DNA from: Hydrogenophaga sp.
Lineage (GTDB): Bacteria; Pseudomonadota; Gammaproteobacteria; Burkholderiales; Burkholderiaceae_C
Assembly: GCA_030653975.1 (NCBI GenBank)
Contig: JAURYH010000029.1
Coordinates: 102,608 to 166,607 of the forward strand
Direction: 5' to 3'
Length of the DNA stretch: 64,000 nt
The position numbers were made by a program, and so were the translations under genes. Positions within the stretch are counted from its first letter, which is position 1; the number at the start of each line of letters is the position of its first letter. Positions 16,911 to 40,132 of the stretch are shown piece after piece. Under the pieces are notes generated by a model. The model was not told the DNA's origin, did no database searches, and was given only the letters and a program-made list of their open reading frames with translations.

Positions 16911-16950
16911 ACCCATATGGGCTACCCGTCATCACCCTTTGCGGTGATAG
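16911..16950 (+). promoter_or_regulatory. tusA-dsrE2-yeeE promoter with the shared NarL-like dyad
   Basis: The dyad ACCCATATGGGC (16911-16922) is followed, 31 bases centre to centre, by the -10-like hexamer TGATAG (16945-16950), then ACGGG. A second half-site-like TACCCGT lies at 16923-16929. The same arrangement with the same spacing occurs before dsrA, before the operon divergent from dsrA, and before soeA. An activator there would sit near -41, the class II position, consistent with the lack of a good -35 box. Confidence 0.7.
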
Positions 16951-17025
16951 ACGGGCCGTGCGTCCTCTTGAAGAATCAAGCTCCATGCGGTGCGAGAACG
17001 CCGTCAAAAAACACTGGAGACAAAG

Positions 17026-17253
17026 ATGGAATTCAACAAGGAATTTGACGCCTCGGGCCTGGCCTGCCCCATGCCGATCGTCAAGACCAAGAAGGCGCTG
17101 GCGGACATGGCCAGCGGACAGATCCTGCGCGTGGTGGCGACCGACCCCGGCTCGGTGTGCGACATGGCCGCGTTTGCCGAGGCGACCGGCAACGCCCTGC
17201 TGGAGCAGAGCAGCGAGAACAGCAAGTTCGTGTTCTACCTGAAGAAGGCCTGA
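17026..17253 (+). CDS. tusA: Sulfur carrier protein TusA
   Basis: A 75-residue TusA/SirA-like protein with the sulfane-sulfur-binding CPxP motif, LACPMPIVKTK (C14). TusA takes persulfide sulfur and passes it to DsrE-type proteins. It leads a three-gene unit with dsrE2 and the YeeE-type permease and is 7 kb upstream of dsrAB, where it would feed DsrEFH and DsrC. The start has the ribosome-binding site GGAGA. Transcription is expected from the regulated promoter at 16911-16950, giving a leader of about 70 bases. Confidence 0.95.
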   Translation: MEFNKEFDASGLACPMPIVKTKKALADMASGQILRVVATDPGSVCDMAAFAEATGNALLEQSSENSKFVFYLKKA

Positions 17254-17292
17254 AGCCCCTCTCGCCTTTATCCCTCGCAGGAGACACGCAAC

Positions 17293-17763
17293 GTGGCAAG
17301 CAAAAAAATGGCGTTGATCGCCACCAAGGGCACGCTGGACATGGCCTACCCGCCGTTCATCCTGGCGTCCACCGCGGCGTCCCTGGGCTGGGACGTGCAG
17401 ATCTTCTTCACCTTCTACGGCCTGCAGCTGCTGCGCAAGAGCCTGGATGGCGTCCAGATCAGCCCGCTGGCCAACCCCGCCATGCCGATGCCCGTGCCCA
17501 TGCCGGTGATGGTGCAGATGCTGCCGGGCATGGAAGCGATGGCCACGATGATGATGAAGAAGAAGATGAAGTCCAAGGGCGTGGCCTCGCTGCAGGAACT
17601 GCGCGACGTCTGCCTGGAACTGGACGTCAAGTTCGTCGCCTGCCAGATGACCGTGGACCTGTTCGAGTTCGAGACCAGCGAGTTCATCAAGGAAGTCGAA
17701 TACGGCGGCGCCGCGACCTTCATGAAGTTCGCCGGCGAATCGGACGTCTGCCTGTTCATCTGA
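17293..17763 (+). CDS. DsrE2-like sulfurtransferase
   Basis: A 156-residue member of the DsrE/DsrF/DsrH fold family, DsrE2 branch. It has the N-terminal strand MALIATKGTLDMAYPPFILA, a hydrophobic Met/Pro-rich insertion (about 60-90) that probably attaches it to the membrane, and two conserved cysteines (C107 and C117). C117, in VACQMTVDLF, is the likely sulfur-binding residue. DsrE2 usually pairs with TusA and rhodanese to shuttle sulfur; no rhodanese gene is next to it here. GTG start at 17293 with ribosome-binding site GGAGA. Confidence 0.9.
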   Translation: MASKKMALIATKGTLDMAYPPFILASTAASLGWDVQIFFTFYGLQLLRKSLDGVQISPLANPAMPMPVPMPVMVQMLPGMEAMATMMMKKKMKSKGVASLQELRDVCLELDVKFVACQMTVDLFEFETSEFIKEVEYGGAATFMKFAGESDVCLFI

Positions 17764-17857
17764 AGCCCCTGCCGGCAAGGCAGCAGACACGGCGCGTGTG
17801 GTCGCCCGCCATGCGCTGCCGCGCCGGGTGATCTTTTCCTGAAATGGAGCCCTGCAT

Positions 17858-18961
17858 ATGAGCGAAGGAATGAACCCGTCGATGCTGGTGGTCTGGGGCG
17901 GTTTTGTCCTGGCCTTCATCTTTGGCGCTGTCGCCAACAAGACCAACTTCTGCACCATGGGCGCGATCTCGGACGTGGTCAACATGGAGCACTGGGGCCG
18001 CATGCGCATGTGGCTGCTGACCATCGCCGTGGCGGTGATCGGGGCCAACCTGCTCTATTACTTCGGCCTGATCGACCTGTCCAGATCGGTTTACCAGCGG
18101 CCGGTGCTGCCCTGGCTGTCGTTGCTGCTGGGCGGCACCCTGTTCGGCATCGGCATGACCATCGCCGCCGGCTGCACCAACAAGAACCTGGTGCGTGTGG
18201 GCGGTGGCAGCCTGCGGTCGGTGGTGGTGCTGACGGTGCTGGCGATCTCGGCCTACATGACACTCAAAGGCCTGTTTGGCCAGTGGCGCGCCAGCTACCT
18301 GGACCCGGTCTCGGTGGACCTCTCGCAGTGGGGTTTCAGCGCCCAGGGCCTGCCGCAGGTGCTGGCCAGGCTGACCGGCCTGCCGGACAAGACGGCGCTG
18401 CTGATCACGCTGAGCGTGGTGGGGCTGGGCCTGCTGGCGTTCGTGTTCAAGGACAAGCGCTTCCGCGCCAACCTGTCGCACGTGTTCGGCTCGGTGGTGC
18501 TGGGTCTGGTGGTCGTGGCCGCCTGGTACCTGACCGGTCATCTCGGCTACGGTGAAGATCCCGAGACGCTCGAAACGGTGTACTTCGCCACCAACACCCG
18601 CACGCTGGAGTCCATGAGCTTCGTCGCGCCAGTGGCCTACAACCTGGAAATGCTCATGATGTGGACCGACAAGTCGCTGCGCATGACCTTCGGCATCGCG
18701 TCGGCCATCGGCGTGGTGCTCGGCTCCTTCGCCTACGCCATCAGCACGCGGCAGTTCCGCTGGGAAGGCTTTGCCTCGATGGAGGATCTGCGCACCCAGC
18801 TCATCGGCGCGGTGCTGATGGGCTTTGGCGGCGTCACGGCCATGGGCTGCACGATCGGCCAGGGCCTGTCGGGCGTGTCCACCCTGGCGGTTGGCTCTTT
18901 CATCGCGCTGGCCGGCATTGTGGGCGGTGCCGTGGCCACGATGAAGTGGCAACAGCGCTGA
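17858..18961 (+). CDS. YeeE/YedE-family sulfur-compound transporter
   Basis: A 367-residue inner-membrane permease of the YeeE/YedE family, which imports thiosulfate or related sulfur species through conserved cysteines. These are visible as KTNFCTMGA (C32), IAAGCTNKN (about C106) and MGCTIGQG (about C330). There are about nine to ten helices. It lies downstream of tusA and dsrE2, an arrangement that suggests direct loading of imported sulfur onto TusA. The substrate here could be thiosulfate or polysulfide; the sequence does not say which. Confidence 0.88.
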   Translation: MSEGMNPSMLVVWGGFVLAFIFGAVANKTNFCTMGAISDVVNMEHWGRMRMWLLTIAVAVIGANLLYYFGLIDLSRSVYQRPVLPWLSLLLGGTLFGIGMTIAAGCTNKNLVRVGGGSLRSVVVLTVLAISAYMTLKGLFGQWRASYLDPVSVDLSQWGFSAQGLPQVLARLTGLPDKTALLITLSVVGLGLLAFVFKDKRFRANLSHVFGSVVLGLVVVAAWYLTGHLGYGEDPETLETVYFATNTRTLESMSFVAPVAYNLEMLMMWTDKSLRMTFGIASAIGVVLGSFAYAISTRQFRWEGFASMEDLRTQLIGAVLMGFGGVTAMGCTIGQGLSGVSTLAVGSFIALAGIVGGAVATMKWQQR

Positions 18962-18972
18962 CCACCGGCGCC

Positions 18973-19191
18973 CTATTCTTCGCCCGTTGGTCCGGCTTCG
19001 CGCACCTGGCACAGCAGCTCTTCGGCCTGCCACTCGGTCTCGGCAAAGATCACTTTCACCTTGTCGGGGGTGCCTGACGGCAGGGCGGCGCGCAGCGTCT
19101 TGGCCTGGCTGGACGCGGCGGCGAAGGCACCGTGTTCCTCCAGCTTGTCGAGCTGACCAAAGGGTTTGACGCGGTAGATGTAGTACGGCAC
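18973..19191 (-). CDS. Small conserved-looking protein, last gene of the divergent operon
   Basis: A 72-residue soluble protein (MPYYIYRV..., then alternating helix and Ala-rich segments). I do not recognise a family. It begins 25 bases after the stop of the S24-like gene, with GAGGAAC-like bases upstream of the start, and ends convergent with the yeeE gene 11 bases away. Codon use and reading-frame quality match its neighbours, so I take it as real and as part of the eight-gene operon opposite dsrA. Its YIYRVKPFGQLDKLEEHGAF opening could be a small beta-alpha fold, but no function can be claimed. Confidence 0.65.
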   Translation of the reverse strand: MPYYIYRVKPFGQLDKLEEHGAFAAASSQAKTLRAALPSGTPDKVKVIFAETEWQAEELLCQVREAGPTGEE

Positions 19192-19216
19192 GGAGGTTCC
19201 TCGGAAGGGGTGGTTT

Positions 19217-19549
19217 TCAGATGTAGCGTTTGCTGGCCTGGCGCCGCCCGGGCAGCGCCTTCTGGATGATCACACCGCGCACAGCCGACAGATCGGCCAG
19301 CGGCCGGTCGGCGAAGGCCGGGTTCAGCGCGTGCAATATCCAGCCGTTCGCCTGCTGGCAGAGCTGGCGGAAGATCCACTCACCGGCGTGCTGGGCCAGC
19401 ACGAAACTGCCGTCGCGCACCAGGCCCTCGGGCTCGATGACGATGATCTCGCCCTCCATGAACTCGGGTTCCATGCTGGTGCCGAGCACGCGCAGGGCGA
19501 AGGCTTCGCTTCCGCTGCAGGCCGACGCCGCGGGCAATGACTCACTCAT
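19217..19549 (-). CDS. LexA/S24 peptidase-like domain protein lacking the catalytic lysine
   Basis: A 110-residue protein consisting only of a LexA/signal-peptidase-like fold. The Ser motif is clear: LGTSMEPEFMEGEIIVIEP (S25). In active S24 proteins a Lys follows about 36 residues later in a (T/V)-K-R-L context; here that place reads IFRQL with R61, so the Ser-Lys dyad seems broken. There is no DNA-binding domain. It overlaps the stop of the 2Fe-2S reductase gene by 4 bases, so the two are coupled. It may be a partner or sensing module of that protein, which has an HTH-like N terminus; that is inference. Confidence 0.75.
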   Translation of the reverse strand: MSESLPAASACSGSEAFALRVLGTSMEPEFMEGEIIVIEPEGLVRDGSFVLAQHAGEWIFRQLCQQANGWILHALNPAFADRPLADLSAVRGVIIQKALPGRRQASKRYI

Positions 19550-21045
19550 GCCATCTCCCCCACCGGCTCGGCCAGCATCAGGCTGTGGATCTGCGCCGCT
19601 GGCACGCCCGCGGCGCGCAGCTCGGCGTCGAGCGCCTCCACGAAAGCCTCCGGACCGGCGAGGTAGAAGTCGCAGTCGATCTCGAACAGATCGGCGCGCA
19701 TGCCACGCGCGAGCTGCAGCGCGCCAAAGGTCACGTCGGGTTCGGCCAGCAGTTCGTACTCGAACAGGTCCAGCGCCTCCGACCAGGCCCGGCACTGGTT
19801 GGCGAGGAAGTGGCCGTCCGGCCGGGTGGCGAGCCAGAAGAGCGAGAGCGAGGGCGCGTTGTCCAGCGACAGGGCATGTTCGATCAGGCTCTTGACCGGG
19901 CCAAAACCGGTGTCGCAGGCGGCGAAGACCAGCGGCCGGGCGCTGTCGGCCAGCACGAAGTCCCCCACCGGCCCCCACACCGTGACGGCGTCGCCGGCCT
20001 GGATGCCGTCGGAAAACAGCTGGCGCGCAAAAGGGTCCCGGGCATGGCGCTCGACGAAGAAGTGCAGGTTGCGGTCGTCGCACGGGCAGCTGGCAATCGG
20101 GTACAGGGCGTGCACGTCGCTGCCGTCGGGGCGGTTCAGGCCCAGCGTGACCGACTGACCGGCCAGGAAGCGCAGGCGGTGGCTGCGCGGCGTCTGCAGG
20201 TGCAGCAGCCGGGTGCCCGGCGCGAGTGGCGTGACGGCGCGCACGGTGGTCACGATCTGCTGCTGCGGGATGTCCTGCGGGCCGCTGGCCTCCAGCAGTT
20301 CCAGCGTCAGCTCGCTGCTGGCCGCGGTGTGCGCGCACGCCAGCGTGTAGCCCTGGGCACGCTCGGCCTCGGACAGCGGGTAGTCGCAGGGCTGGGTGCG
20401 TGCCACCTCGCCCGAAATCACGCGCACCTTGCACATGCCGCAGGTGCCGTTGCCGCAACCGTAGTTGAGCTTGAGTCCGGCGCGCAGGCCGGCCTGCAAC
20501 AGGGTGTCGTGCCCCTCGACGCAGAACTGGTGTCCGCTGGGGCGCACCGTCACCTGGGCTGTCATGACTTTGAGCATGTCGTCCATCACCGTGAGCAGGT
20601 CGGCCTGTTCGGTCGCGAGCGCCTGCGCCAGACCCTGGTCGACAAAATCCTGCAGTTCGGACAGAGCCAGCGGCGTGGCGCCGTCGTCTTGCAGGGCATG
20701 GATACGCGTCTGCAGCGCAATCACCAGCGTGTGATAACGCTGCAGCCAGCGCCGCACATCGGCCAGCTCCTGCGTCTGGTGGAAGAGCCGCTGCGCCAGC
20801 ACCTCCTGGCTGGGCAGCAGCCGCTCGCGCAGGCGCTTGCCGAAGGCCTCGTCGCGGATGTGGGCCACCCGCTCCAGCAGGCCGGTTTCTTCCAGCTTCA
20901 CATCGGGGTAGAGCCGCAGCAGCTCGTCGGTGGTGACCAGTCCGTCGGTGAGCACCAGCGCGCCGCTGCGCACCTGCTGCTGCAACACGCCACGGGGCAC
21001 GCCGACCAGCTGGGCGGCGCGCCAGATCGTCAGCCAGTGGCTCAT
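19546..21045 (-). CDS. 2Fe-2S flavoprotein reductase with an HTH-like N terminus
   Basis: A 499-residue protein. Residues 1-50 resemble an excisionase/MerR-type helix-turn-helix (TIWRAAQLVGVPRGVLQQQVRSG). A helical region (about 50-160) leads to a plant-type ferredoxin domain with C197, C202, C205 and C237, then FAD-binding (about 255-350) and NAD(P)-binding (about 365-490) domains of the ferredoxin-NADP reductase family. Such oxidoreductases feed electrons from NAD(P)H to an oxygenase or reduce a partner. It sits between the TauD-like oxygenase and the S24-like gene in the operon opposite dsrA. The N-terminal extension is unusual and suggests protein docking or DNA-linked redox sensing. Confidence 0.85.
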   Translation of the reverse strand: MSHWLTIWRAAQLVGVPRGVLQQQVRSGALVLTDGLVTTDELLRLYPDVKLEETGLLERVAHIRDEAFGKRLRERLLPSQEVLAQRLFHQTQELADVRRWLQRYHTLVIALQTRIHALQDDGATPLALSELQDFVDQGLAQALATEQADLLTVMDDMLKVMTAQVTVRPSGHQFCVEGHDTLLQAGLRAGLKLNYGCGNGTCGMCKVRVISGEVARTQPCDYPLSEAERAQGYTLACAHTAASSELTLELLEASGPQDIPQQQIVTTVRAVTPLAPGTRLLHLQTPRSHRLRFLAGQSVTLGLNRPDGSDVHALYPIASCPCDDRNLHFFVERHARDPFARQLFSDGIQAGDAVTVWGPVGDFVLADSARPLVFAACDTGFGPVKSLIEHALSLDNAPSLSLFWLATRPDGHFLANQCRAWSEALDLFEYELLAEPDVTFGALQLARGMRADLFEIDCDFYLAGPEAFVEALDAELRAAGVPAAQIHSLMLAEPVGEMA

Positions 21046-21106
21046 CGGAATACATCGCCCTGCGGGCAACGGTGCGCGCTGGCTTGGGAGCGGCCCGGCG
21101 CTGCGC

Positions 21107-22060
21107 TCACACCCACAGCTCCGGCTGGGCCGCCTGAGGCGCGTGGCGATGCGGCGCTGGCGGTGCACCGACACGGTCGAGGTAACGCGCCCGGTACAGC
21201 AGGCGCGGGCGCTGCGGGTGGTCGATGAAGCCGCTGCGCTCGTGCGGCACGTTGTTGCAGACGAGACCCATGCCGGGCTGCAGTTGTACGTGGTAAATCC
21301 AGGGCACGTCGCTGGACAGCAGCTGCTCCAGAAAGGCGACGGCTGCGCGCGTGTCAGCGTCATCCTGCCAGGCGATGCTGCGCGTGCGCGCGGTGTAGCG
21401 CATGTGCAGCGCGTGGCCGCCGTCGGGGCCTGCCAGCACGCTGAACACCGGGCCGCTCTGCGCCGGGCGGGCCACGCCGTTTTCGTCGGTGCGCTCGGGA
21501 ATGGTCATGGCGTCGGGCGCCATGAGCGCGCGCACCCAGGCGGGGTTGGCGTCGCGCAGCGCGATGTAGACCCGGTCATGGTCGACCAGCCCGCTGACAC
21601 CGCCCTCGCCCGCAGCGCGCACGCAATGCAGGACCATGCCCTCGATGCGGCGCGACTGCGGATGGTAGTAACCGTCGGTGTGCCAGCGGATGGGTTTGTC
21701 GGTGTAGGGGATGAAGTCGGCACGGGCGCCAGGCCGCTGCGTCGACACGGCTATTGGCGAGATGCCGTCTTCGTCGGCCAGCCAGTTGGCGTCGAGCCGC
21801 TGCAGGCCCAGCTGCGCACCCAGCCGGCGCGGCAAAGCCTTGTCCTCCTCGATCACCGGGCTGCGGTAGATGACCATGTTGGTGCGCGCGCAGGTGTCCA
21901 GCAAGGCGGTGCGTTCGGCCGCGAGCAGGCGCCGCGGATCGGCCACGTCGACGACCAGATCTTCAACGCACCGAGGCTGCATCGCCAGCTTGGCCGCACG
22001 CCACCGCGCATACGCCTGCGGCTGGTCCAGGTCGAACGGGCTGGGGGTGTTGGCTGCCAT
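21107..22060 (-). CDS. TauD/TfdA-family Fe(II)/2-oxoglutarate oxygenase
   Basis: A 317-residue member of the taurine dioxygenase family. The iron triad is visible as H127-T-D129 (IRWHTDGYYHP) and distal H273 (CNNVPHERSGF), with a 2-oxoglutarate-binding Arg in RPRLLYRARY. Family members hydroxylate substrates such as sulfonates to release sulfite, or modify small molecules. Its presence in an operon opposite dsrA hints at a sulfonate or sulfur-metabolite substrate, but TauD enzymes do not need a reductase, so the neighbouring flavoprotein need not serve it. Length and motifs look complete. Confidence 0.85.
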   Translation of the reverse strand: MAANTPSPFDLDQPQAYARWRAAKLAMQPRCVEDLVVDVADPRRLLAAERTALLDTCARTNMVIYRSPVIEEDKALPRRLGAQLGLQRLDANWLADEDGISPIAVSTQRPGARADFIPYTDKPIRWHTDGYYHPQSRRIEGMVLHCVRAAGEGGVSGLVDHDRVYIALRDANPAWVRALMAPDAMTIPERTDENGVARPAQSGPVFSVLAGPDGGHALHMRYTARTRSIAWQDDADTRAAVAFLEQLLSSDVPWIYHVQLQPGMGLVCNNVPHERSGFIDHPQRPRLLYRARYLDRVGAPPAPHRHAPQAAQPELWV

Positions 22061-22062
22061 GT

Positions 22063-22671
22063 CTAGTCTCCGCTCATCGTGGCGCGGCGTTTGGGGCGCG
22101 GCTCGGTGGACAGGGCGCCGTGCATGCCCCGGCGCACCATCTCCAGCGCCTCTGGCACTTCGACGGCCATCAGCTGGTCTTTGACCCAGTGCTGGTCCTT
22201 GGCCGGCATGACGCTCTCGATGCGGCTGCCCAGGTAGCGCACGAAACCGAAGTCCGGCCCGTCGGGGCCGTGCCCGAAGTCGGCATAGGCCTCGCCCAGT
22301 TCGTTGCAGAAATCGATGAACTGGTTGCGCCAGCTGTCCGCGGCGCCGGCGGGCGGGCCCAGCCATTCCAGCTCACTTTCTTCCAGGATTTCGGCCGAAC
22401 GGCGCACCAGCGCAGCGGTGAATTCCGCCCGCTGCTCGCCGGTCATGCGCTCGAACGCCATGCGGTCCACCACCTGGATCAGGAAGCCCAGGATCTCCCG
22501 CATGAAGGCGAAATACTGCGGGCCGACGTCGATGTCGAAGCGGGCCTCGCGCATCTGCTTGACCATGTTCTGCGTCACGCGCCAGACGATGAAGGCCAGC
22601 ACACTGGCGGTCTCCTTCGCGGACTTCGGTCGCCCGTTGTCAAACCACTGGTTCTTGATGCGCAGGGCCAT
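22063..22671 (-). CDS. Unknown 202-residue protein of the dsr-divergent operon
   Basis: A soluble, mostly helical protein (MALRIKNQWFDNGRPKSAKE..., WRVTQNMVKQMREARFDID). No signal peptide or membrane helix and no motif I can assign. It ends 2 bases before the TauD-like start and follows the DsrC-like gene by 11 bases, so it is firmly within the operon. Trp- and acidic-rich segments around residues 105-140 (ELEWLGPPAG, FIDFCNELGEAYADFG) look like a conserved core. Confidence 0.75.
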   Translation of the reverse strand: MALRIKNQWFDNGRPKSAKETASVLAFIVWRVTQNMVKQMREARFDIDVGPQYFAFMREILGFLIQVVDRMAFERMTGEQRAEFTAALVRRSAEILEESELEWLGPPAGAADSWRNQFIDFCNELGEAYADFGHGPDGPDFGFVRYLGSRIESVMPAKDQHWVKDQLMAVEVPEALEMVRRGMHGALSTEPRPKRRATMSGD

Positions 22672-22682
22672 GGTGAATTCGG

Positions 22683-23012
22683 TCAGTACCCGCCTTTACC
22701 CAAGGGCTGCGGCAGCCCCGCTACCTTCGCTGCCTGCTTGGCCGGCCCGAGCGGAAACAGGTCGTACAGGTACTTGCTGTCCACGCCCTGGCGGATCTCG
22801 CTGTAGCCCTTGAGCATGTTGCGGAAGTTGGGTGTGTGGCCGTGCTCGCGGTACTGGTCGCGCATGTAGCCGATGACTTCCCAGTGCGCATCCGACAGGA
22901 CCAGGCCATCGGCCGCCGCGATGACCAGCACCGCCTCTTCGCTGTAGTCGGGTTCGAGCAGATAGCCTTCGGCATCGGTTTCGAGTTCAACGCCATTGAT
23001 CTGGTAGCCCAT
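22683..23012 (-). CDS. DsrC-like protein without either redox cysteine (RspA type)
   Basis: A 109-residue DsrC/TusE-fold protein. It aligns along its length with DsrC at 27775-28107 (DAEGYLLEPDYSEE, DAHWEVIGYMRDQYREHG, KYLYDLFPLGPAKQAAKVAGLP). Both functional cysteines are gone: the CysB position is A95 and the C-terminal CysA position is K106, and there is no other Cys. It therefore cannot carry sulfur like DsrC. Cysteine-less DsrC homologues have been named RspA and thought regulatory. It is the third gene of the operon opposite dsrA. A partner-binding or antagonist role towards the Dsr machinery is inference. Confidence 0.88.
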   Translation of the reverse strand: MGYQINGVELETDAEGYLLEPDYSEEAVLVIAAADGLVLSDAHWEVIGYMRDQYREHGHTPNFRNMLKGYSEIRQGVDSKYLYDLFPLGPAKQAAKVAGLPQPLGKGGY

Positions 23013-23050
23013 GCTGGTGTCTCCGTGTTGGGGGGTTGAGAAAATCGAAG

Positions 23051-23677
23051 CTATTCACCGACCGCCGCGGCCGACTTGTGCGGCACGAAGATGCCGCAGC
23101 CCAGCAAACGGTGACGACCCAGCCCGTGTTCCTGCAGCAGCAGCGAATCCGCCTGGCTGAGTCCGTGCAGCATCAGGCTGAACGTGGTCTGCGCGCCACC
23201 GGGCCAGTCGCGCTGCTGGCGCTTGCCGCAGACCAGCTGCGAGCGCACCTGCAGCGTCTGCAGCTCGTCGTTCATCGCCTGCACGAACGCGATCTCGTCA
23301 TCCGCCTCCGCGGCCACGGCGTAGGCGTACAGGGTGTGGTGCGGCAGCAGTTCGCGCGGGTGCGGCAGGCCCAGGGTGGCGGTCTGCCCGCCCACCTGCA
23401 GGGACCGGCCGGCGAGTTCGATGGCGGCCACCATGCGCTCGCGTGGCAGGCGCAGCAGCAGGCGTGTGCGCTGCGACAGCAGGGCCTCGGCTTCATTGCC
23501 CGGCACCAGCTTGAGGGGGTGAATGCCGGCCAGCGGCTCCTGATCGAGCCAGGGCATTTCGCGCTGCAGCGCCGCCCGCAGGGCCGGCGCCGATTCGCGC
23601 GGCAGGCTGTGGCCGTTCAGCGGAAAGACCAAGTCCACCAGCGCGGTCAGCCGGGTGTTGTCGCGGGCAACGCTCAT
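23051..23677 (-). CDS. Stand-alone Cas6/Cmx6-like RAMP protein
   Basis: A 208-residue protein resembling Cas6 of the type I-MYXAN (Cmx6) branch. The opening LVDLVFPLNGHSLPRES (13-29), PWLDQEPLAGIHPL (42-55) and the C-terminal glycine-rich loop HGLGRHRLLGCGIFVPHK (184-201) are the family's hallmarks. Cas6 proteins bind and often cut CRISPR repeat RNA. Here there is no CRISPR array or other cas gene within the window; instead it is the second gene of an operon opposite dsrA, overlapping the 75-aa gene by 4 bases. It may bind another RNA or no RNA at all. Histidines H23, H53, H106, H113 and H114 could include a catalytic one, but this cannot be decided by eye. Confidence 0.82.
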   Translation of the reverse strand: MSVARDNTRLTALVDLVFPLNGHSLPRESAPALRAALQREMPWLDQEPLAGIHPLKLVPGNEAEALLSQRTRLLLRLPRERMVAAIELAGRSLQVGGQTATLGLPHPRELLPHHTLYAYAVAAEADDEIAFVQAMNDELQTLQVRSQLVCGKRQQRDWPGGAQTTFSLMLHGLSQADSLLLQEHGLGRHRLLGCGIFVPHKSAAAVGE

Positions 23678-23901
23678 GGGGGATCGGTCCGTGTGGGCTG
23701 TGCCTGCGCCCAGCGCAGCAACGCCCGACCCCAGCGCTCGGCGGTCTGAGGGTCGATGTCGAAGATCGTGAAGCGGCTGCCTTCACGGATGCGCGTGCGC
23801 AGCAGGCTCATGCCACCGGCATCGTGGTCGTGCTGCTGCAACTCGATTTCCTGTCCACCAAGGGGCACCCGGAATCGGTCTAGCGGGGTGATCTGGCTCA
23901 T
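23674..23901 (-). CDS. Unknown 75-residue protein, first gene of the dsr-divergent operon
   Basis: A small soluble protein (MSQITPLDRFRVPLGGQEIELQ..., then LLRTRIREGSRFTIFDIDP and ERWGRALLRWAQ) with a predicted beta-rich core and a final helix. I do not assign a family. It overlaps the Cas6-like gene by 4 bases, so the two are translated together and may act together. It is the first gene after the promoter at 23982-24021. I chose the ATG at 23899-23901; upstream frame sequence runs into the promoter and is not expected to be translated. Confidence 0.78.
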   Translation of the reverse strand: MSQITPLDRFRVPLGGQEIELQQHDHDAGGMSLLRTRIREGSRFTIFDIDPQTAERWGRALLRWAQAQPTRTDPP

Positions 23902-23981
23902 GTCTCCGTCACTCCTGGAGCCGGCGCAAGCTGGCGGGCGTTCTTCATCTCCGCTATTGGCGCAATTCCGGGGCCGGCAGT

Positions 23982-24021
23982 CTATAGCCGGGACGGGTGG
24001 GACCGCATAACCCATCTGGGT
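23982..24021 (-). promoter_or_regulatory. Promoter of the operon divergent from dsrA
   Basis: On the minus strand, the dyad centred at 24015.5 (24010-24021, ACCCATCTGGGT on the plus strand) is followed 31 bases on, centre to centre, by CTATAG (23982-23987), then ACTGCC. This mirrors the dsrA promoter around the same dyad, so one bound regulator could activate both directions. Expected leader length is about 75 bases to the 75-aa gene. Confidence 0.65.
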
Positions 24022-24049
24022 AGTCCCGCCTAGCCAACGAGGGGGATAG
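24010..24049 (+). promoter_or_regulatory. dsrA promoter with the shared NarL-like dyad
   Basis: Dyad ACCCATCTGGGT (24010-24021), with the -10-like GGATAG at 24044-24049, 31 bases centre to centre. It is flanked as TAACCCATCTGGGTAG, giving a NarL-like heptamer TACCCAG on the minus strand. Expected leader to dsrA is about 115 bases. Same architecture as the tusA and soeA promoters. Confidence 0.68.
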
Positions 24050-24172
24050 CAAGAAGACCACCCCGGCTCCTACGATGCACCCCACACCGGAACACGGGCC
24101 GACAGAGCCCCCGCAAGGCCCACGATGCGAGACCGCCGTTGTCGAAAACGGCACCCCGACAGGAGACAAGAC

Positions 24173-25471
24173 ATGGCCAAAAAGATGCACGAGACCCCGA
24201 TGCTCGACGAGCTCGAGAGCGGCCCGTGGCCCAGCTTCGTGACCGGCCTCAAGCGGCTGGCTGCAGAGAAGGACTACATGGTGGACCTGATGGGTCAGCT
24301 GGAGACCTCGTACCGGACCCGCAAGGGTTACTGGAAGGGCGGCACGGTGGGCGTTTTCGGTTACGGCGGTGGTGTGATTCCGCGCTTCACCGAACTCAAG
24401 GATGCCGACGGCAAGCCCCAGTTCCCCGACGCCGCCGAGTTCCACACCCTGCGCGTGCAGCCGCCGGCCGGCATGCACTACAACACGGACGTGTTGCGCA
24501 AGATGTGCGACATCTGGGAAGAGCACGGCTCGGGGCTGATTGCGTTCCACGGCCAGTCGGGCGACATCATGTTCCAGGGCGCGAAGACCGACAAGGTGCA
24601 GGACGCCTTTGACGCCCTCAACGAGCTCGGTTTTGACCTCGGCGGCGCCGGCCCCGCGGTGCGCACCTCGATGAGTTGCGTCGGCGCGGCGCGTTGCGAG
24701 CAGTCGTGTTTCGACGAAGCACGCGCCCACCGCCAGGTGATCAACACCTTCCTCGACGACATCCACCGACCGGCCCTGCCCTACAAGTTCAAGTTCAAGT
24801 TCTCGGGCTGCTCCAACGACTGCATGAACTCGATCCAGCGCTCGGACATGGCCGTCATCGGCACCTGGCGCGACAACATGCGCACCGACGAGACCCTGGC
24901 GCGCAAGTGGTTCGACAAGCACGGCATGAACGAGCTGGTCAACGACGTCATCAACCGCTGCCCGACCAAGACCATCCTGCTCAAGGAGGTCAAGGACGTG
25001 GCCCAGGGCCCGAAGATCTCCAGCGTGAAGATCAACGACACCCAGTGCCTGGAGATCGACAACAGCAACTGCGTGCGCTGCATGCACTGCATCAACGTCA
25101 TGACCGGCGCGCTGGCCCACGGCACCGACACCGGCGCCACGATCCTGGTCGGTGGCAAACGCACGCTGAAGATCGGCGACCTGATGGGCACGGTGGTGGT
25201 GCCCTTCATGCCGCTCAAGACCGACGAGGACTACAAGGGCCTGGTCAAGCTGGCCCAGAAGATCATCGATTTCTTCGCCGAGAACGCGCTGGAGCACGAG
25301 CGCACCGGCGAGATGATCGAGCGCATCGGCCTGGTCAATTTCCTCGAAGGCATCGAGCTGGAGGTGGACCCCAACATGGTGTCCACCCCGCGCACCAACC
25401 CCTATGTGCGCACCGACGACTGGGACGAGGAAGCCGCCAAGTACATGGCGCGCAAACAGGCCACCGCCTGA
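24173..25471 (+). CDS. dsrA: Dissimilatory sulfite reductase alpha subunit, oxidative type
   Basis: A 432-residue DsrA. It carries siroheme/[4Fe-4S]-ligand cysteines in SCVGAARCEQSC and SGCSNDCMNS, and the inserted ferredoxin domain with NCVRCMHCINVM. With DsrB it forms the siroheme enzyme that, in sulfur oxidisers, releases sulfite from DsrC-bound sulfur in the cytoplasm. The presence of dsrEFH and dsrL downstream marks it as the oxidative (reverse) type. It heads the dsr operon; the start has ribosome-binding site AGGAGA at 24161-24166. It is transcribed from the regulated promoter about 120 bases upstream. Confidence 0.97.
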   Translation: MAKKMHETPMLDELESGPWPSFVTGLKRLAAEKDYMVDLMGQLETSYRTRKGYWKGGTVGVFGYGGGVIPRFTELKDADGKPQFPDAAEFHTLRVQPPAGMHYNTDVLRKMCDIWEEHGSGLIAFHGQSGDIMFQGAKTDKVQDAFDALNELGFDLGGAGPAVRTSMSCVGAARCEQSCFDEARAHRQVINTFLDDIHRPALPYKFKFKFSGCSNDCMNSIQRSDMAVIGTWRDNMRTDETLARKWFDKHGMNELVNDVINRCPTKTILLKEVKDVAQGPKISSVKINDTQCLEIDNSNCVRCMHCINVMTGALAHGTDTGATILVGGKRTLKIGDLMGTVVVPFMPLKTDEDYKGLVKLAQKIIDFFAENALEHERTGEMIERIGLVNFLEGIELEVDPNMVSTPRTNPYVRTDDWDEEAAKYMARKQATA

Positions 25472-25539
25472 ACGGTGCAGCGCCCCGTCCTTCTTCCTTC
25501 CGTCCAACTCCTCAACCGTCCAACCCGGGAAGGCAACCC

Positions 25540-26610
25540 ATGGCCCAAATGCGATCCCCCATTGAGAGCGGCGTGCCGGACAACAAGCCGTACCTGCATC
25601 CGACCCTGCTGAAAAACTACGGCAACTGGCGCTACCACGACCGGCCACGGCCCGGCGTGCTGCACCACGTTTCGCACAGCGGCGACGAGGTCTGGTCGGT
25701 GCGTGCCGGCACCCAGCGCCAGATGGATGTGCACACCATCCGCAAGCTCTGCGACATCGCCGACACCTATGCCGAAGGGCATGTGCGCTTTACCATCCGC
25801 TCGAACATCGAGTTCATGGTGTCCGACCCGAACAAGGTGGCGCCGCTGATCTCGGCCCTGACCGAAAGCGGCTTCCCCGTGGGCGGCACCGGCAACTCGG
25901 TGTCGATGATCGCGCACACCCAGGGCTGGCTGCACTGCGACATCCCGGGCACCGACGCATCGGGCGCCGTGAAGGCGCTGATGGACGAGCTCTACACCGA
26001 GTTCATCCGCGAGGACATGCCCAACCGCGTGCACCTGTCCACCAGCTGCTGTGAGATCAATTGCGGCGGCCAGGCCGACATCGCGATCGTGATCCAGCAC
26101 ACCAAGCCGCCCAAGATCAACCACGACCTGGTGGCCAACGCCTGCGAGCGCCCGGCCGTGGTGGCGCGCTGCCCGGTGGCCGCGATCCGTCCCGCGCTGG
26201 TCAACGGCAAGCCGTCGCTGGAGGTGGACGAGAAGAAGTGCATCTGCTGCGGCGCCTGCTTCCCGCCCTGCCCGCCGATGCAGATCAACGACCCGGAGCA
26301 CTCCAAGTTCGCCATCTGGGTCGGTGGCAAGAACTCCAACGCGCGCGGCAAGCCCACCTTCATGAAGATGGTCGCCTCGGGCATTCCGAACAACCCGCCG
26401 CGCTGGCCCGAGGTGTCAGAGATCGTCAAGAAGATCCTCTACACGTACAAGGCCGATGCCCGCCCGTGGGAGCGCCTGTCGGACTGGGTGGAGCGCATCG
26501 GCTGGCCCAACTTCTTCGAGAAGTGCGAGCTGCCGTTCACCAAGTACCTGATCGACGACTGGCGCGGTTCGCGCGCCAGCCTGAACGCATCGACCCACAT
26601 CCGCTTCTGA
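25540..26610 (+). CDS. dsrB: Dissimilatory sulfite reductase beta subunit
   Basis: A 356-residue DsrB. It shows the siroheme-site cysteines (STSCCEINCGG and CERPAVVARCPV) and a ferredoxin-type cluster, KKCICCGACFPPCPPM, near residue 235. It forms the alpha2beta2 core with DsrA. The gap to dsrA is 68 bases and to dsrE 67 bases; the latter holds a palindromic repeat. Full length for the family. Confidence 0.97.
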   Translation: MAQMRSPIESGVPDNKPYLHPTLLKNYGNWRYHDRPRPGVLHHVSHSGDEVWSVRAGTQRQMDVHTIRKLCDIADTYAEGHVRFTIRSNIEFMVSDPNKVAPLISALTESGFPVGGTGNSVSMIAHTQGWLHCDIPGTDASGAVKALMDELYTEFIREDMPNRVHLSTSCCEINCGGQADIAIVIQHTKPPKINHDLVANACERPAVVARCPVAAIRPALVNGKPSLEVDEKKCICCGACFPPCPPMQINDPEHSKFAIWVGGKNSNARGKPTFMKMVASGIPNNPPRWPEVSEIVKKILYTYKADARPWERLSDWVERIGWPNFFEKCELPFTKYLIDDWRGSRASLNASTHIRF

Positions 26611-32465: not shown

Positions 32466-32470
32466 CGGCC

Positions 32471-33726: not shown

Positions 33727-33741
33727 AAACGAGGCCCCAGC

Positions 33742-36386: not shown

Positions 36387-36757
36387 ACGCGATGCTCACG
36401 CCCCCAGCCGATGCCTTCACCCGCATCCTCATGGTCAACGGCCACCCGGTCGAAACCGATTCCGAAGGCTACCTGCGCCATCTCGGCGACTGGTCGGAAG
36501 ACTTTGTGCGCGCACTCGCCGCACAGGAAGAACTCACGTTGACAGAAGAACACTGGCAGCTGGTGCGCTACCTGCGGGAGTACTACGCCGAGCATGGCGT
36601 GCAGGCCCAGGTGCGCGCCATGATCAGACACTTCACGCAGGTCTGGGGCCCCGAACGCGGCAGCAACCACCACCTGCACGATCTCTTCCCCCGCGGCGGT
36701 CCGCAGAAACAGGGCAACCGGCTGGCCGGCCTGTTGCGCACCAAGGGCGAACATTGA
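36383..36757 (+). CDS. Second cysteine-less DsrC-like protein (RspA type)
   Basis: A 124-residue DsrC/TusE-fold protein with an N-terminal extension of about 13 residues. It matches DsrC in TDSEGYLRHLGDWSEDFV, LTEEHWQLVRYLREYYAEHG and LHDLFPRGGPQKQ. It has no cysteine at all: the CysB position is G111 and the C-terminal arm ends in RTKGEH. It sits inside the dsr operon between dsrN and dsrR with a 4-base overlap to dsrN, so it is made with the Dsr proteins. It differs clearly from the one at 22683-23012, so they are not a recent duplication. Confidence 0.88.
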   Translation: MNAMLTPPADAFTRILMVNGHPVETDSEGYLRHLGDWSEDFVRALAAQEELTLTEEHWQLVRYLREYYAEHGVQAQVRAMIRHFTQVWGPERGSNHHLHDLFPRGGPQKQGNRLAGLLRTKGEH

Positions 36758-36769
36758 AAGAAGTCCAGC

Positions 36770-37162
36770 ATGTTCACACTCACAGCGACAGCAGCAGAAC
36801 AGATACGACAGGCGGCCCGCGAGAGCGACGCCGAACAGCTGGCCCTGCGCGTGGCCGCCCGGCGCGAGCCCGACGGCTCCATCGGCTACGGCATGGGCTT
36901 TGACGATGTCGCGGACAACGACACACGCCTGCTGCTGGAGGACGTGGCGGTGGTGATCGCTGCGGCGCACACCGACCTGCTGGAAGACACCGTGCTCGAC
37001 TTCGTCGAGCTGGAGCCGGGCCAGTTCAACTTCATTTTTGTGAGCCAGCAACTGCTGGCCCAGGCCCCCGCCTCCAGCGGCTGCAGCACCGGCGGTGGTG
37101 GTTGTGGCAGCGGCGGCTGCGGCACGGGTGGCGGCTGTGGCACGGGGAGCCGAACCTTATGA
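36770..37162 (+). CDS. dsrR: DsrR-like A-type carrier fold with a Gly-Cys tail
   Basis: A 130-residue protein whose first 100 residues have the IscA/ErpA A-type fold (MFTLTATAAEQIRQAARES..., GMGFDDVADNDTRLLLEDVAVVI). The three cluster cysteines of true A-type carriers are absent from that core, as in DsrR of sulfur oxidisers, where a post-transcriptional role in dsr expression has been proposed. The C terminus is different: residues about 108-127 form a Gly-rich stretch with six cysteines (SSGCSTGGGGCGSG, GGCGTGGGCGTG). It overlaps the methyltransferase gene by 4 bases. Confidence 0.85.
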   Translation: MFTLTATAAEQIRQAARESDAEQLALRVAARREPDGSIGYGMGFDDVADNDTRLLLEDVAVVIAAAHTDLLEDTVLDFVELEPGQFNFIFVSQQLLAQAPASSGCSTGGGGCGSGGCGTGGGCGTGSRTL

Positions 37163-38010
37163 ACATCCGACCTTTTGGCCAGCGGTCACGCGGCTGTGTC
37201 TACCTGGTGGGCGCCGGGCCCGGGGACCCGGAACTGCTGACACTCAAGGCCGTGCGCCTGCTGGAGCAGGCCGACGTCATCGTCTACGACAACCTGGTGT
37301 CCTCGGGCGTGCTGGACTTTGCGGCACCGGGCGCGCAGCGCATCTTTGCCGGCAAGCGGCGCAACGAACACACCATGCGCCAGGAGCAGATCAACGGGCT
37401 GCTGGTCCAGTTGGCGCGCGAGGGCAAGCAGGTGGTGCGCCTCAAGGGCGGCGACCCCTTCGTCTTCGGTCGGGGCGGCGAAGAAATGCAGGAGCTGGCC
37501 GCGCACGGCGTGGACTTCGAGGTGATCCCCGGCGTGACCGCCGCCTGCGGCGTGGCCAGCTACGCCGGCATCCCGCTCACGCACCGCGACCACGCCCAGG
37601 TCGCCATGTTCGTCACCGGCCACCTGAAGGACGGCAGCGCCGACCTGGACTGGGACGCGCTGGTGCGTCCGAACCAGACCGTGGTGATCTACATGGGGCT
37701 GAACGCCCTGCCCGACATCTGCCGCCAGCTGATGGCACACGGTGCCCCGTGCACACGGCCCATTGCCGCCGTGCAACACGGCACCCTGGCCACACAGCAG
37801 GTGCTCACCGGCACACTGGCCGACCTCCCGGCCAAGGTGGCGGTCAGCGGCTTCACCTCGCCCAGCCTGCTGATCGTGGGCGACGTGGTGAAACTGCACG
37901 GCACCCTGCACTGGTTCGATCCGCAGACCGCTGCCGCCAGCAGCCTGTCGCCCGCCCACCACGAGGTGCCACGGCAGTTGCCGGCGCTCCACGCGGCTGC
38001 GACCAACTGA
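37159..38010 (+). CDS. cobA: Uroporphyrinogen-III C-methyltransferase (siroheme pathway)
   Basis: A 283-residue SUMT. It has the family motifs VYLVGAGPGDPELLTLKA near the N terminus and VVRLKGGDPFVFGRGGEE at about 94-111, plus GVTAACG. It makes precorrin-2, the precursor of siroheme, the cofactor of DsrAB. It lacks the oxidase/chelatase half of CysG, so those steps must be encoded elsewhere. It is the last gene of the dsr operon, convergent with the response regulator 13 bases away. Confidence 0.93.
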   Translation: MNIRPFGQRSRGCVYLVGAGPGDPELLTLKAVRLLEQADVIVYDNLVSSGVLDFAAPGAQRIFAGKRRNEHTMRQEQINGLLVQLAREGKQVVRLKGGDPFVFGRGGEEMQELAAHGVDFEVIPGVTAACGVASYAGIPLTHRDHAQVAMFVTGHLKDGSADLDWDALVRPNQTVVIYMGLNALPDICRQLMAHGAPCTRPIAAVQHGTLATQQVLTGTLADLPAKVAVSGFTSPSLLIVGDVVKLHGTLHWFDPQTAAASSLSPAHHEVPRQLPALHAAATN

Positions 38011-38023
38011 AAGGCAAGGTTCT

Positions 38024-38749
38024 TCAGGTCTGTCGGCGCCCCGATGGGTTCTCCGGGTCATCGCCCTTGCCCGAATGTTCGGACGAGGTGCGGTGCTCGA
38101 ACGCAAACACGGCGGCTTCCACGCGCGAGCCCAGGTCGAGCTTGGCCATGATGTGGCGCACGTGCAGCTTGACGGTGTTGTGGCTGATGTCCAGCGCCTG
38201 CGCGATCACCTTGTTGCTCTTGCCGCGCGCCACCTGGTCCAGCACCTGTCGCTCTCGATCAGTCAGCGTGTCCACCAGGTCGCGCTTGACCGAGCCCTTC
38301 TGGCCGCTCTGCCACATCTGGGCCAGCTTGGCGGCCATCGCCGGCGCCACCACCAGCTCGCCGCGTGCGGCACGGCCGATGGATTCGATCACGTCATCGG
38401 GGTCCATGTCCTTGAGCAGGTAGCCCCGCACGCCGGCACGCAGTGCCGCCGACAGGTCGTCTTCGCTGTCGCTCATGGTCAGCACGACCACCGGCACATC
38501 AAAACCCTCCGTGCGCACCGTGCGCAGGACGCTCAGACCATCGACCGGACCCAGGCTCAGGTCGAGGATCATCAGCTCGGGCTGGCACTCGCGCAGCAAG
38601 GGAATCACCTGCGCGCGATCCCCGGTGGCCGCGACCACGACCATGCCGCTGCGGTTTTGCAGCAATTCGGACAGGCCGCTGCGGCACATGGCGTGATCGT
38701 CCACCAGCATCACCCGGGTCTGCATGGCCTGTGTGGCGGGCGTCGTCAT
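38024..38749 (-). CDS. NarL-like response regulator, candidate regulator of the sulfur genes
   Basis: A 241-residue two-domain regulator. The receiver domain has D17-D18 and phospho-acceptor D63 (MILDLSL). The LuxR/NarL helix-turn-helix (about 165-207) reads GKSNKVIAQALDISHNTVKLHVRHIMAKLDLGSRVEAAV and is very close to that of NarL, including the recognition-helix pattern N-T-V-K-x-H-V-[K/R]-H. NarL sites are TACCCAT-like heptamers, and such a dyad occurs before tusA, dsrA, its divergent operon and soeA. The start overlaps the kinase stop by 4 bases. Control of the sulfur regulon is inferred, not shown. Confidence 0.9.
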   Translation of the reverse strand: MTTPATQAMQTRVMLVDDHAMCRSGLSELLQNRSGMVVVAATGDRAQVIPLLRECQPELMILDLSLGPVDGLSVLRTVRTEGFDVPVVVLTMSDSEDDLSAALRAGVRGYLLKDMDPDDVIESIGRAARGELVVAPAMAAKLAQMWQSGQKGSVKRDLVDTLTDRERQVLDQVARGKSNKVIAQALDISHNTVKLHVRHIMAKLDLGSRVEAAVFAFEHRTSSEHSGKGDDPENPSGRRQT

Positions 38750-39942
38750 GGCGTGCGTTCTGCGGTGGTGGCGGGTGGCGTGGGCAGCAGCAGGCGCACG
38801 CGGGTACCGCCACCCGCGTTTTCGCCGACCTCCAGACTCGCCCCCAGGCGCTGGGCCCGGCTCTGCATGATCTCCAGCCCGAAATGCGTGGACGCCGAGA
38901 GCCCCTTGGCCGTGGTCACGATGGTGGAAACGCCCGGCGCGGCCATGCCCAGGCCATCGTCCTCGATCACGAATTCGAGGCCTGCGGGGGTCTTGTGGAT
39001 GGCGACCACCGCATGGCGGGCCATGGAGTGTTTGGCGATGTTGGCCAGCGACTCCTGCACGATGTGAAACACCTGCACCTCCTGGGCGTCGGACAGGTTC
39101 AGGTGTCGAACCGTGTTCCGTATCTCCAGCGAAATGCCGTTGCGACCGAAGAATTCGGCGGCAATGCCCTGGAGCGCGTGCAGCAGCCCCAGCGGGTCCA
39201 TGCGGGTGCGGAAATAGGTCATGACCTCGCGCAGGTTGTCGTGCACCTCCCCCACCGCCTGCTTGACGTCCGAGAAGTACTTGATGGCTTTCGGGTCGTC
39301 GTGGGCCAGCATCGCATCGTTCAGCAGCGGCAGGCGCATCCTCGCGTAGGCCAGCGTCTGCGCAATGGCATCGTGCACTTCGTTCACCATTTCCTGGCGT
39401 TCCTTCATCACGGTCAGCCGCAGACGCTCGCGCTCGATCCGGGCGTTGTGCAGCGAGAGGCCCAGGAGCTGCCCGATCAGACGCAGGATGGTCTGCGTCG
39501 TCGGCGGGATCTGGACCCTGGACTCAAAAAACAGGTTGTAAATCCCCAGCACCTGATCGGCGTGCGACAGCGAGATGGCCAGCACGCCTTTGCATTGCCC
39601 ACCGAAATAGTGCCCCCCGCCTTGCCGGTCACAGGAACGCAGATCGTCCACCCAGCCCAGCACGTCGGCGCCCACCGCGGTGCCGCACATGCCGCATCCG
39701 CGATCCACCAGTTGCTCGGCCTCCTGCACATGCAGCGGCAGGCCCTGCTGCGCCACCAGCCGCATGTGAAGCCCGTCATCGGTCACCACCCGCACGGCGC
39801 CAGCCTGTGCCCCGGCGAGATCAAGGATGGGACCCAGAAAGCGCTGGAGCAACAGCTCCAGATCGTCAGACGCAACACCCGGCACCATCACGCCCGGGAT
39901 GTCGGCGCTGGCTGGTGCAGGGGAGACGGAAAGCGTTGGCAT
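38746..39942 (-). CDS. Soluble NarX-like sensor histidine kinase with a four-Cys GAF domain
   Basis: A 398-residue kinase without membrane helices. An N-terminal GAF-type domain (about 28-165) carries four cysteines, C83, C86, C104 and C117 (RGCGMCG, LRSCDRQ, GGQCKGV), suited to bind an Fe-S cluster or react with sulfur species. A HisKA_3 domain follows with phospho-accepting H190 (NEVHDAIAQTL), and a HATPase domain has GLGMAAPG and the closing GGGTRVRLLLP. It is co-transcribed with the NarL-like regulator. Unlike NarX it lacks the periplasmic nitrate sensor, so the signal is cytoplasmic. Confidence 0.9.
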   Translation of the reverse strand: MPTLSVSPAPASADIPGVMVPGVASDDLELLLQRFLGPILDLAGAQAGAVRVVTDDGLHMRLVAQQGLPLHVQEAEQLVDRGCGMCGTAVGADVLGWVDDLRSCDRQGGGHYFGGQCKGVLAISLSHADQVLGIYNLFFESRVQIPPTTQTILRLIGQLLGLSLHNARIERERLRLTVMKERQEMVNEVHDAIAQTLAYARMRLPLLNDAMLAHDDPKAIKYFSDVKQAVGEVHDNLREVMTYFRTRMDPLGLLHALQGIAAEFFGRNGISLEIRNTVRHLNLSDAQEVQVFHIVQESLANIAKHSMARHAVVAIHKTPAGLEFVIEDDGLGMAAPGVSTIVTTAKGLSASTHFGLEIMQSRAQRLGASLEVGENAGGGTRVRLLLPTPPATTAERTP

Positions 39943-39982
39943 GTTGAGGGTAGACCCAGGTCAGGCAAGGAGTCCGAACCAT

Positions 39983-40006
39983 ATTAGTCCACAAGCATGT
40001 GCTAAT
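39983..40006. promoter_or_regulatory. Imperfect dyad upstream of the sensor kinase gene
   Basis: ATTAG (39983-39987) with CACA (39990-39993) faces TGTG (39998-40001) with CTAAT (40002-40006), a near-palindrome about 40-64 bases upstream of the kinase start. It could be an operator for the two-component operon. It does not resemble the ACCCATATGGGT dyad. Weak evidence. Confidence 0.3.
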
Positions 40007-40092
40007 GCATGCTGAAAACCCCAAGGCGCGCGAGCGCATCTGCTGTTAGTGCCGCGTGGGAAACCGAGGCGACGGCGGCGGCCGGTCACGCT

Positions 40093-40132
40093 ACCCATAT
40101 GGGTGATGCCGGCTTACCCGTGTCGGTAATAG
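40093..40132 (+). promoter_or_regulatory. soeA promoter with the shared NarL-like dyad
   Basis: A perfect 12-base palindrome, ACCCATATGGGT (40093-40104), preceded by T to give the heptamer TACCCAT, and the -10-like TAATAG at 40127-40132, 31 bases centre to centre, followed by ACGGGG. A further TACCCGT lies at 40115-40121. It is the best-conserved of the four shared promoters. Confidence 0.72.

Follow-up and report, generated by a model that had tools for sequence, protein, structure and literature searches.

The subject of this analysis is a 64,000-nt stretch of Hydrogenophaga sp. DNA (below, the window), in which four promoters of sulfur genes share a GC-rich dyad placed at a fixed distance from a −10-like word, and in which a NarX/NarL-like kinase–regulator pair is encoded between two of the operons concerned, dsr and soe. 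The comparison with related genomes suggests that the dyad is probably the operator of this pair, which would activate the sulfur-oxidation operons in concert. As far as sequence conservation goes, the regulon is real, and there is good support for its proposed assignment to the NarXL-like pair. A single sulfur-oxidation regulon under a NarL-like regulator had been proposed in the original prediction, and the comparison supports it, because the same promoters with the same dyad and spacing are found in relatives, the pair is tied to dsr, and pair and promoter are absent together in Gammaproteobacteria. The membership of soe is supported in betaproteobacteria, but not in the Gammaproteobacteria tested.

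Direct reading of the sequence showed that the three dyads and four −10-like words of the original prediction are present at its positions, and that they are 31 bases apart, centre to centre, at all four promoters. The predicted operator ACCCATATGGGC (16911..16922) is located upstream of tusA-dsrE2-yeeE, ACCCATCTGGGT (24010..24021) is common to the two divergent promoters of dsr and of the operon opposite dsr, and ACCCATATGGGT (40093..40104) lies in the gap between the kinase gene and soeABC. The corresponding words are TGATAG (16945-16950), GGATAG (24044-24049), CTATAG on the minus strand (23982-23987) and TAATAG (40127-40132). Three of the four promoters also have a putative extra half-site, [CT]ACCC[GT]T, upstream of the −10 in the interval that separates it from the dyad: CACCCTT (16933..16939, plus strand), CACCCGT (23993..23999, minus strand) and TACCCGT (40115..40121, plus strand).

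Within the window alone the dyad is not unusual, as it was seen 19 times with up to two mismatches versus 12.9 expected, and 10 of 100 shuffles reached 19. The picture is different in the organism's own genome (4.09 Mb in 74 contigs, with the window at C17:102608-166607). There ACCCATNTGGGY occurs at six places, versus none for the control read backward; three are the intergenic dyads of the window, and the other three fall within open frames that run 586, 285, and 418 codons from stop to stop. The scan for dyad and −10 together, which had been suggested as a check, allowed up to three mismatches: the composite dyad-N20-GGNNATAG was found with zero or one mismatch at the four window promoters only and with three at two more places, versus three matches in total for the backward control. 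Hence, the idea that a few similar GC-rich dyads lie near unrelated −10-like words by chance, to which the abundance of degenerate dyads in the window might lend some credit, is rejected by the genome-wide rarity of the composite together with its conservation upstream of dsrA in betaproteobacteria and in held-out gammaproteobacterial loci, and is left with a negligible probability.

In betaproteobacteria the conservation was measured at 80 dsrA loci, 79 of which had at least 150 bp of upstream sequence, over a search span of 400 bp. Exact ACCCN4GGGT was found in 39 of the 79 upstream regions versus 0.7 expected from shuffles, and in 71 versus 16.5 expected when one mismatch was allowed; these shuffled controls, like those for the gammaproteobacterial dsrA (learning and held-out) and soeA regions below, keep base but not dinucleotide composition. 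The column profile of the 39 exact regions reads AYWACCC-N4-GGGTWRT, with a second peak at the −10. Among 50 dsrA upstream regions that hold [AG]CCCN4GGGT, a set not chosen by spacing, ATRG is located at exactly the predicted offset in 32, while every other offset accounts for at most three, except for a cluster of 13 at 14 bp. The full composite was searched for in 50 of the 80 dsrA genomes and was found in 35 of them, with 65 matches versus five for the backward control. The gene contexts were then examined in 20 stretches that were picked by eye from the 65 matches for their promoter-like look and that contain 25 motif instances. Apart from one instance each in L127 and L135, the composite in these stretches precedes tusA-dsrE2 (L124, L125, L131, L136, and L138-L141), dsr, the DUF6967-Cas6-DsrC operon opposite dsr, or soe. 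Exact ACCCN4GGGY is also present in 12 of 19 betaproteobacterial kinase–soeA gaps, counting the window's own. As to the two exceptions, in L127 (position 248, genome G020) the composite is placed right before a TauE-UspA operon and not soe, while in L135 (position 4294, G031) the complete motif is flanked by soxY and a dienelactone hydrolase gene, a hint that in some betaproteobacteria sox has become part of the regulon. A further arrangement was seen in L134 (4605-4639, G036), where two composites with overlapping dyads and downstream elements face each other upstream of tusA-dsrE2.

The exact betaproteobacterial dyad was rejected as a class-wide motif, as the dsrA upstream regions of Gammaproteobacteria proper hold a related form instead. 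This form consists of TATCCC-N4-GGGATA, a second GC-rich site centred 32 bp downstream, and then TAGACT. The TATCCC-N4-GGGATA dyad is matched at 10 or more of its 12 positions in 28 of 29 upstream regions versus 0.4 expected, and a TAGACT-like word starts 64-66 bases past its centre in 20 of the 29 (at 64 in 15 of them). The motif was learned from these first 29 loci, while 56 other upstream regions were held out. The class contributed 99 dsrA matches, which yielded 86 upstream regions at first, 56 of them fetched and 30 from loci; for L195, among the latter, the sequence before dsrA was too short. Outside the 86 were the window's own region, six that were partial or cut by contig ends, and six second copies, including one that likewise reaches the end of its contig. 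At a score of at least 14, a threshold picked after the null distribution had been viewed, the motif was found in 45 of the 56 held-out regions versus 0.7 expected, or in 45 of 60 when four further second copies are included. These four scored 11, 13, 13, and 11; of the other two second copies, one has only 62 bp of upstream sequence and one lies outside the set. Second dsrA copies without the dsr promoter are those of L364 (G516) and L431-L434 (G454, G445, G354, and G381), and L381 (G251) is without the betaproteobacterial dyad; perhaps such copies represent a differently controlled dsr set. When only the exact dyad was counted, 52 occurrences were found in 274 genomes of the class, 25 of them within 450 bp upstream of dsrA; the dyad is present in 45 genomes, versus matches of its backward control in seven. 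Two more precede dsrA fragments located at the ends of contigs (L267 and L268), and genomes with no dsrA match account for 14 of the 52, the dyad of L267 itself being one of these.

The gammaproteobacterial promoters also bear on the position of the −10. Since a TAGACT-like word recurs there 64-66 bases from the dyad centre, TAGACT/TAGACG is likely the shared −10, three bases downstream of the hexamer chosen in the original prediction. The NATAG words proposed as −10 are present, but alignment with relatives favors the overlapping words TAGACG (16948..16953, plus strand) for the tusA promoter, TAGACT (23979..23984, minus strand) for the operon opposite dsr, TAGCAA (24047..24052, plus strand) for dsr, and TAGACG (40130..40135, plus strand) for soeABC, with predicted transcription starts near 16960, 23972, 24059, and 40142, respectively. 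As a consequence, the dyad would be centred near −43.5 rather than near −41, where the regulator had been placed. With TAGACN assigned to −12 to −7, the computed centres relative to the predicted start are −43.5 for the betaproteobacterial dyad and −44.5 and −76.5 for the two gammaproteobacterial sites, the nearer of which reads CACCCCATNGGTAGGGT and variants.

These predicted positions resemble those of known activators. At the E. coli ogt promoter NarL acts from −44.5 and −77.5, with the nearer site abutting the −35 element (PMC7419079). In both ogt and yeaR, which are NarL-activated, the activator site abuts the −35 element, as is predicted for the dsr promoters, while the operator sequence, the half-site spacing, and the target genes are different; the match is a likeness of architecture and not proof. 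A comparable placement is described for StyR, a StyR/TodT-type activator, the dimer of which sits at about −40 relative to the transcription start of a catabolic operon (PMC2442086), although both the half-site and the hydrocarbon signals of this type differ from those considered here, and TodS is a complex multidomain kinase (PMC4321377). The NarL operator consists of two inverted 7-base elements 2 bp apart, known as 7-2-7 (PMC7419079), while the CCC-N4-GGG core found in both betaproteobacteria and Gammaproteobacteria is two bases tighter. Hence, the proposal that the dyad contains NarL heptamers holds only loosely: the heptamer TACCCAT is present at 40092-40098, but the core is not a 7-2-7 site. 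The same N4 gap is found in the Tod box, ATAAAC-N4-GTTTAT.

The NarL-like regulator gene reported between dsr and soe is present at 38024..38749 on the minus strand, and its product, the predicted dyad binder, has a receiver domain (PF00072) and a GerE/LuxR helix–turn–helix domain (PF00196). Beside it, and missing from the original prediction, is a kinase gene (38746..39942, minus strand) encoding a NarX/NarQ-like histidine kinase with GAF, HisKA_3, and HATPase domains and without the N-terminal pair of membrane helices. Both genes are oriented opposite to dsr and soe, and the soe dyad is located in the kinase–soe gap.

The distribution of this pair follows that of dsr. A kinase match was found in 49 of 50 dsr-bearing betaproteobacteria, the weakest best match having an E-value of 7e-50. 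Among 250 Burkholderiales genomes, dsrA is present in 51, the kinase (E-value of 1e-45 or better) in 49, and both in 47, which corresponds to 47 of 51 dsrA-bearing versus 2 of 199 other genomes; the latter two matches (G161 and G198) are long NarX-like proteins outside the dsr-linked clade. The four dsrA-bearing genomes in which the kinase gave no match are G247, G251, G267, and G291. Among the 274 genomes of the class, dsrA is present in 92, the kinase in 71, and both in 65 (65 of 92 versus 6 of 182). When the 27 dsr genomes lacking a match were searched with a more sensitive profile, 17 yielded a kinase that covers the full profile (in one case apparently divided between contigs), three yielded a kinase domain that lacks GAF, and seven yielded nothing convincing, which raises the count to 82 of 92. 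The three that retain only the catalytic part (G338, G396, and G478) are smaller gammaproteobacterial genomes of 1.1-2.1 Mb, and one of them keeps a promoter score of at least 14. In genome G018, the kinase match (C220:6185-7258) contains two in-frame TAA codons and is either a decayed gene or an assembly error.

The gene neighborhood is conserved as well. A response regulator gene adjoins the kinase gene in 31 of 31 betaproteobacterial, 28 of 29 gammaproteobacterial, and all eight Gallionella-type loci. Of the 29 gammaproteobacterial loci, 19 have dsrN- or dsrR-like genes nearby, within about 1.5 kb, and soeA is divergent from and adjacent to the pair in 19 of 31 betaproteobacterial ones. In a tree of 31 betaproteobacterial, 29 gammaproteobacterial, and 16 other kinases, a subset of those found, the dsr-linked kinases together with four from dsrA-negative genomes (G432, G484, G488, and G533) are split from 13 long NarX-like kinases at 100/100 support. 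The eight Gallionella-type kinases, which are 31-36% identical to that of the window, group with the betaproteobacterial ones in a quick tree of 69 kinases (96% SH-aLRT).

Kinase and promoter also tend to be present or absent together. The promoter, at a score of at least 14, was found in 73 of 76 dsr genomes of the class with the kinase, in one of three with a truncated kinase, and in none of five without it (Fisher p = 2e-6, with relatedness ignored). At a threshold of 13 these values become 76 of 76, two of three, and none of five. The table comprises 84 of the 92 dsr genomes, as seven were unscorable and the window's own was left out; the two copies of G516 were folded into the better one. 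The five Gammaproteobacteria with neither kinase nor promoter are G331 and G475, G440 and G552, and G429.

Several observations weigh against the assignment of the dyad to this pair as the switch of sulfur oxidation, or narrow its reach. The five kinase-less genomes come from three families only, and two of them are reduced genomes of about 1 Mb. Three kinase-bearing Gammaproteobacteria score just 13, and the second dsrA copies of Gammaproteobacteria are below 14 in five of five cases tested. Among betaproteobacteria, the dyad precedes dsrA in G247 (identical with G022), where no dsr-linked kinase was found; G251 has the dyad before one of its two dsrA copies, also without such a kinase. The best kinase match of G251 is a 653-residue frame on a very long branch outside the dsr-linked clades, with a neighboring regulator that is only 39% identical. 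Conversely, the betaproteobacterial dyad is missing in G291, which has a gammaproteobacterial-type kinase, and in G267, whose kinase is diverged and has a regulator of 61% identity beside it. Six kinase-bearing genomes of the class have no dsrA match, and the sensitive profile search was confined to dsr genomes. The mismatch between the dyad core and the 7-2-7 operator belongs here too. Finally, soe was rejected as a universal member of the regulon: among gammaproteobacterial soeA upstream regions (41 chosen kinase-bearing genomes, 35 matches, 30 loaded as loci), none of the 30 reached a score of 12 versus 0.4 expected, and six reached 11 versus 2.7 expected, on a score looser than that used for the held-out dsrA regions.

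Comparison of the two proteins with the nitrate system shows both shared and differing features. The kinase has the same GAF, HisKA_3, and HATPase module as NarX and NarQ, the regulator has the same receiver and LuxR-type helix–turn–helix as NarL, and in both systems the regulator gene adjoins the kinase gene. The best solved relative of the window regulator is NarL (1a04), with a closely similar helix–turn–helix. Differences include the linkage of this pair to dsr and the CCC-N4-GGG core of its predicted operator. NarL is also the best NCBIfam match of the regulator, although at 205.3 bits it is below the cut-off of 250; the L221 regulator reaches 227 bits, again as best match. The window kinase scored 133 bits versus the NarQ cut-off of 553 and 107 bits versus the NarX cut-off of 578, while the gammaproteobacterial kinases of L221 and L206 scored 226-237 bits for NarQ and 166-170 bits for NarX, also below the cut-offs. 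In all three proteins tested the NarX model is matched only from position 154 or later, and the window kinase fits only the C-terminal part of the NarQ and NarX models. By hydropathy alone, none of 31 betaproteobacterial kinases has an N-terminal helix pair (nine have one hydrophobic stretch), while 22 of 29 gammaproteobacterial kinases have two helices whose starts are only 22-39 residues apart and which leave hardly any periplasmic segment; in L204 and L212 the helices are about 155-160 residues apart, and 5 of the 29 have one helix or none. A HAMP match was obtained in two of three gammaproteobacterial kinases tested, once below the cut-off. The cysteines of the GAF domain (Cys83 of the window kinase or its neighbor, Cys86, and Cys104) are kept in 93-97 percent of each set, betaproteobacterial and gammaproteobacterial, while Cys117 is found mainly in betaproteobacteria. 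NarX relatives may share these GAF cysteines. The system resembles a nitrate sensor but is predicted to have lost the part that senses nitrate.

On the preferred reading, dimers of the phosphorylated regulator would bind the CCC-N4-GGG dyads near −43.5 in betaproteobacteria, or at −44.5 and −76.5 in Gammaproteobacteria. Placed just upstream of the −35 position, the bound regulator would recruit RNA polymerase to a promoter that appears to have a usable −10 (TAGACT/TAGACG) and no recognizable −35. From the shared dyad at 24010-24021, both dsr and the divergent operon would be driven simultaneously. With less certainty, the signal may be a cytoplasmic sulfur or redox state read by the conserved GAF cysteines, since the kinase lacks the periplasmic part with which NarX binds nitrate.

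The same two-component system could alternatively bind the dyads chiefly to repress, or to displace another factor, rather than as a class II-like activator. Some NarL-family regulators, such as StyR, also repress (PMC2442086), and a protein bound at the extra half-sites of three promoters would be in a position to obstruct polymerase. The single fixed dyad position abutting the −35, the lack of a recognizable −35, and the agreement with positions from which NarL activates argue for activation, which makes this alternative unlikely. It is still less probable that another NarL/LuxR-family regulator encoded elsewhere binds the dyads, and that the adjacent pair is linked to dsr for other reasons. 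Genomes do contain further NarX-like kinases, and G247 and G251 have the dyad without the dsr-linked kinase. This explanation is opposed by the joint absence of promoter and kinase in all five scorable kinase-less Gammaproteobacteria, from three families, and by the fact that the long NarX-like kinases form a separate clade, with two of them in genomes without dsrA (G161 and G198).

A very improbable binder of the dyads is DsrC itself, for which DNA binding has reportedly been suggested in Allochromatium vinosum. The kinase-less dsr genomes are without the promoter even though DsrC is part of the dsr system; the presence of DsrC in those five was unchecked. Equally improbable is an ArsR-type repressor such as SoxR or sHdrR, both of which control sulfur oxidation in Hyphomicrobium (PMC10451225, PMC12423496); the tetrathionate pathway of Acidithiobacillus is controlled by a further sulfur-oxidation regulator, RsrR (PMC5093147). 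These are sulfur-oxidation regulators like the one predicted here, but the passages concerned in the two Hyphomicrobium papers are not on dsrAB, and the product of 38024-38749 has receiver and GerE domains and does not match the ArsR winged helix. The neighborhood comparisons used the window's own proteins only, so that an ArsR gene there could escape.

The genes behind the four promoters are as follows. The first operon consists of tusA (17026..17253, plus strand, PF01206), dsrE2 (17293..17763, plus strand, PF13686), and a gene for a YeeE-like sulfur transporter (17858..18961, plus strand, PF04143). The dsr operon begins with dsrA (24173..25471, plus strand, start predicted, TIGR02064 over cut-off). 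The divergent operon starts with the gene of a DUF6967 protein (23674..23901, minus strand, start predicted, PF22295), followed by those of a Cas6/Cmx6-family protein (23051..23677, minus strand, PF09559, and TIGR02807 over cut-off) and a DsrC/TusE-like protein (22683..23012, minus strand, PF04358), and by further genes. The fourth promoter serves soeA (40241..43162, plus strand, start predicted), the molybdoenzyme subunit of a putative sulfite-oxidizing complex. The name soe is that of the original prediction; molybdopterin oxidoreductase families match the protein below their cut-offs, and its orthologs adjoin the kinase–regulator pair in relatives.

The Cas6/Cmx6 family was found in 46 of the 250 Burkholderiales genomes, all of them dsrA-bearing (46 of 51, versus 0 of 199 without dsrA), and among the matches listed its gene is mostly on the dsrA contig and on the opposite strand. 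A search for a CRISPR-like array in 15000-26000 of the window found none. The protein looks like a Cas6 relative with a sulfur-linked role, and the label "type I-MYXAN CRISPR" is probably misleading for it. In two gammaproteobacterial genomes (G517 and G485, loci L267 and L268), Cas6-like and DsrC-like genes are likewise located on the far side of the dsrA promoter, followed in L267 by the kinase and regulator genes.

The control of dsr in the main group of dsr-based sulfur oxidizers is largely open. In the literature on the regulation of dsr and sulfur oxidation, no title or abstract among the matches listed describes such a dsr operator, or such a pair as a dsr regulator. A 2023 paper states, in the part concerned, that little is known about the sensing of inorganic sulfur compounds, and suggests that dedicated oxidizers, purple sulfur bacteria among them, may do without elaborate regulation (PMC10451225). 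The evidence presented here opposes the latter view, as a single promoter architecture and a single two-component pair accompany dsr across the class, and the analysis names a predicted regulator, operator, and start sites. A bolder extension, which we regard as possible but hold only tentatively, is that this system is an ancient NarXL branch and the master switch of reverse-dsr sulfur oxidation in the whole class, betaproteobacteria included. Its kinase, without the periplasmic nitrate sensor, would read cytoplasmic sulfane sulfur through the GAF motif C-x(1-2)-C...C and so tie dsr expression to the sulfur arriving on DsrC and TusA. The genome paper of Allochromatium vinosum notes NarXL without nitrate reductase genes (PMC3368242). 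If the extension is true, "NarXL" annotations in sulfur bacteria that lack nitrate reductase would denote this system. More generally, annotations as "nitrate sensor NarX/NarL" may be wrong in sulfur oxidizers.

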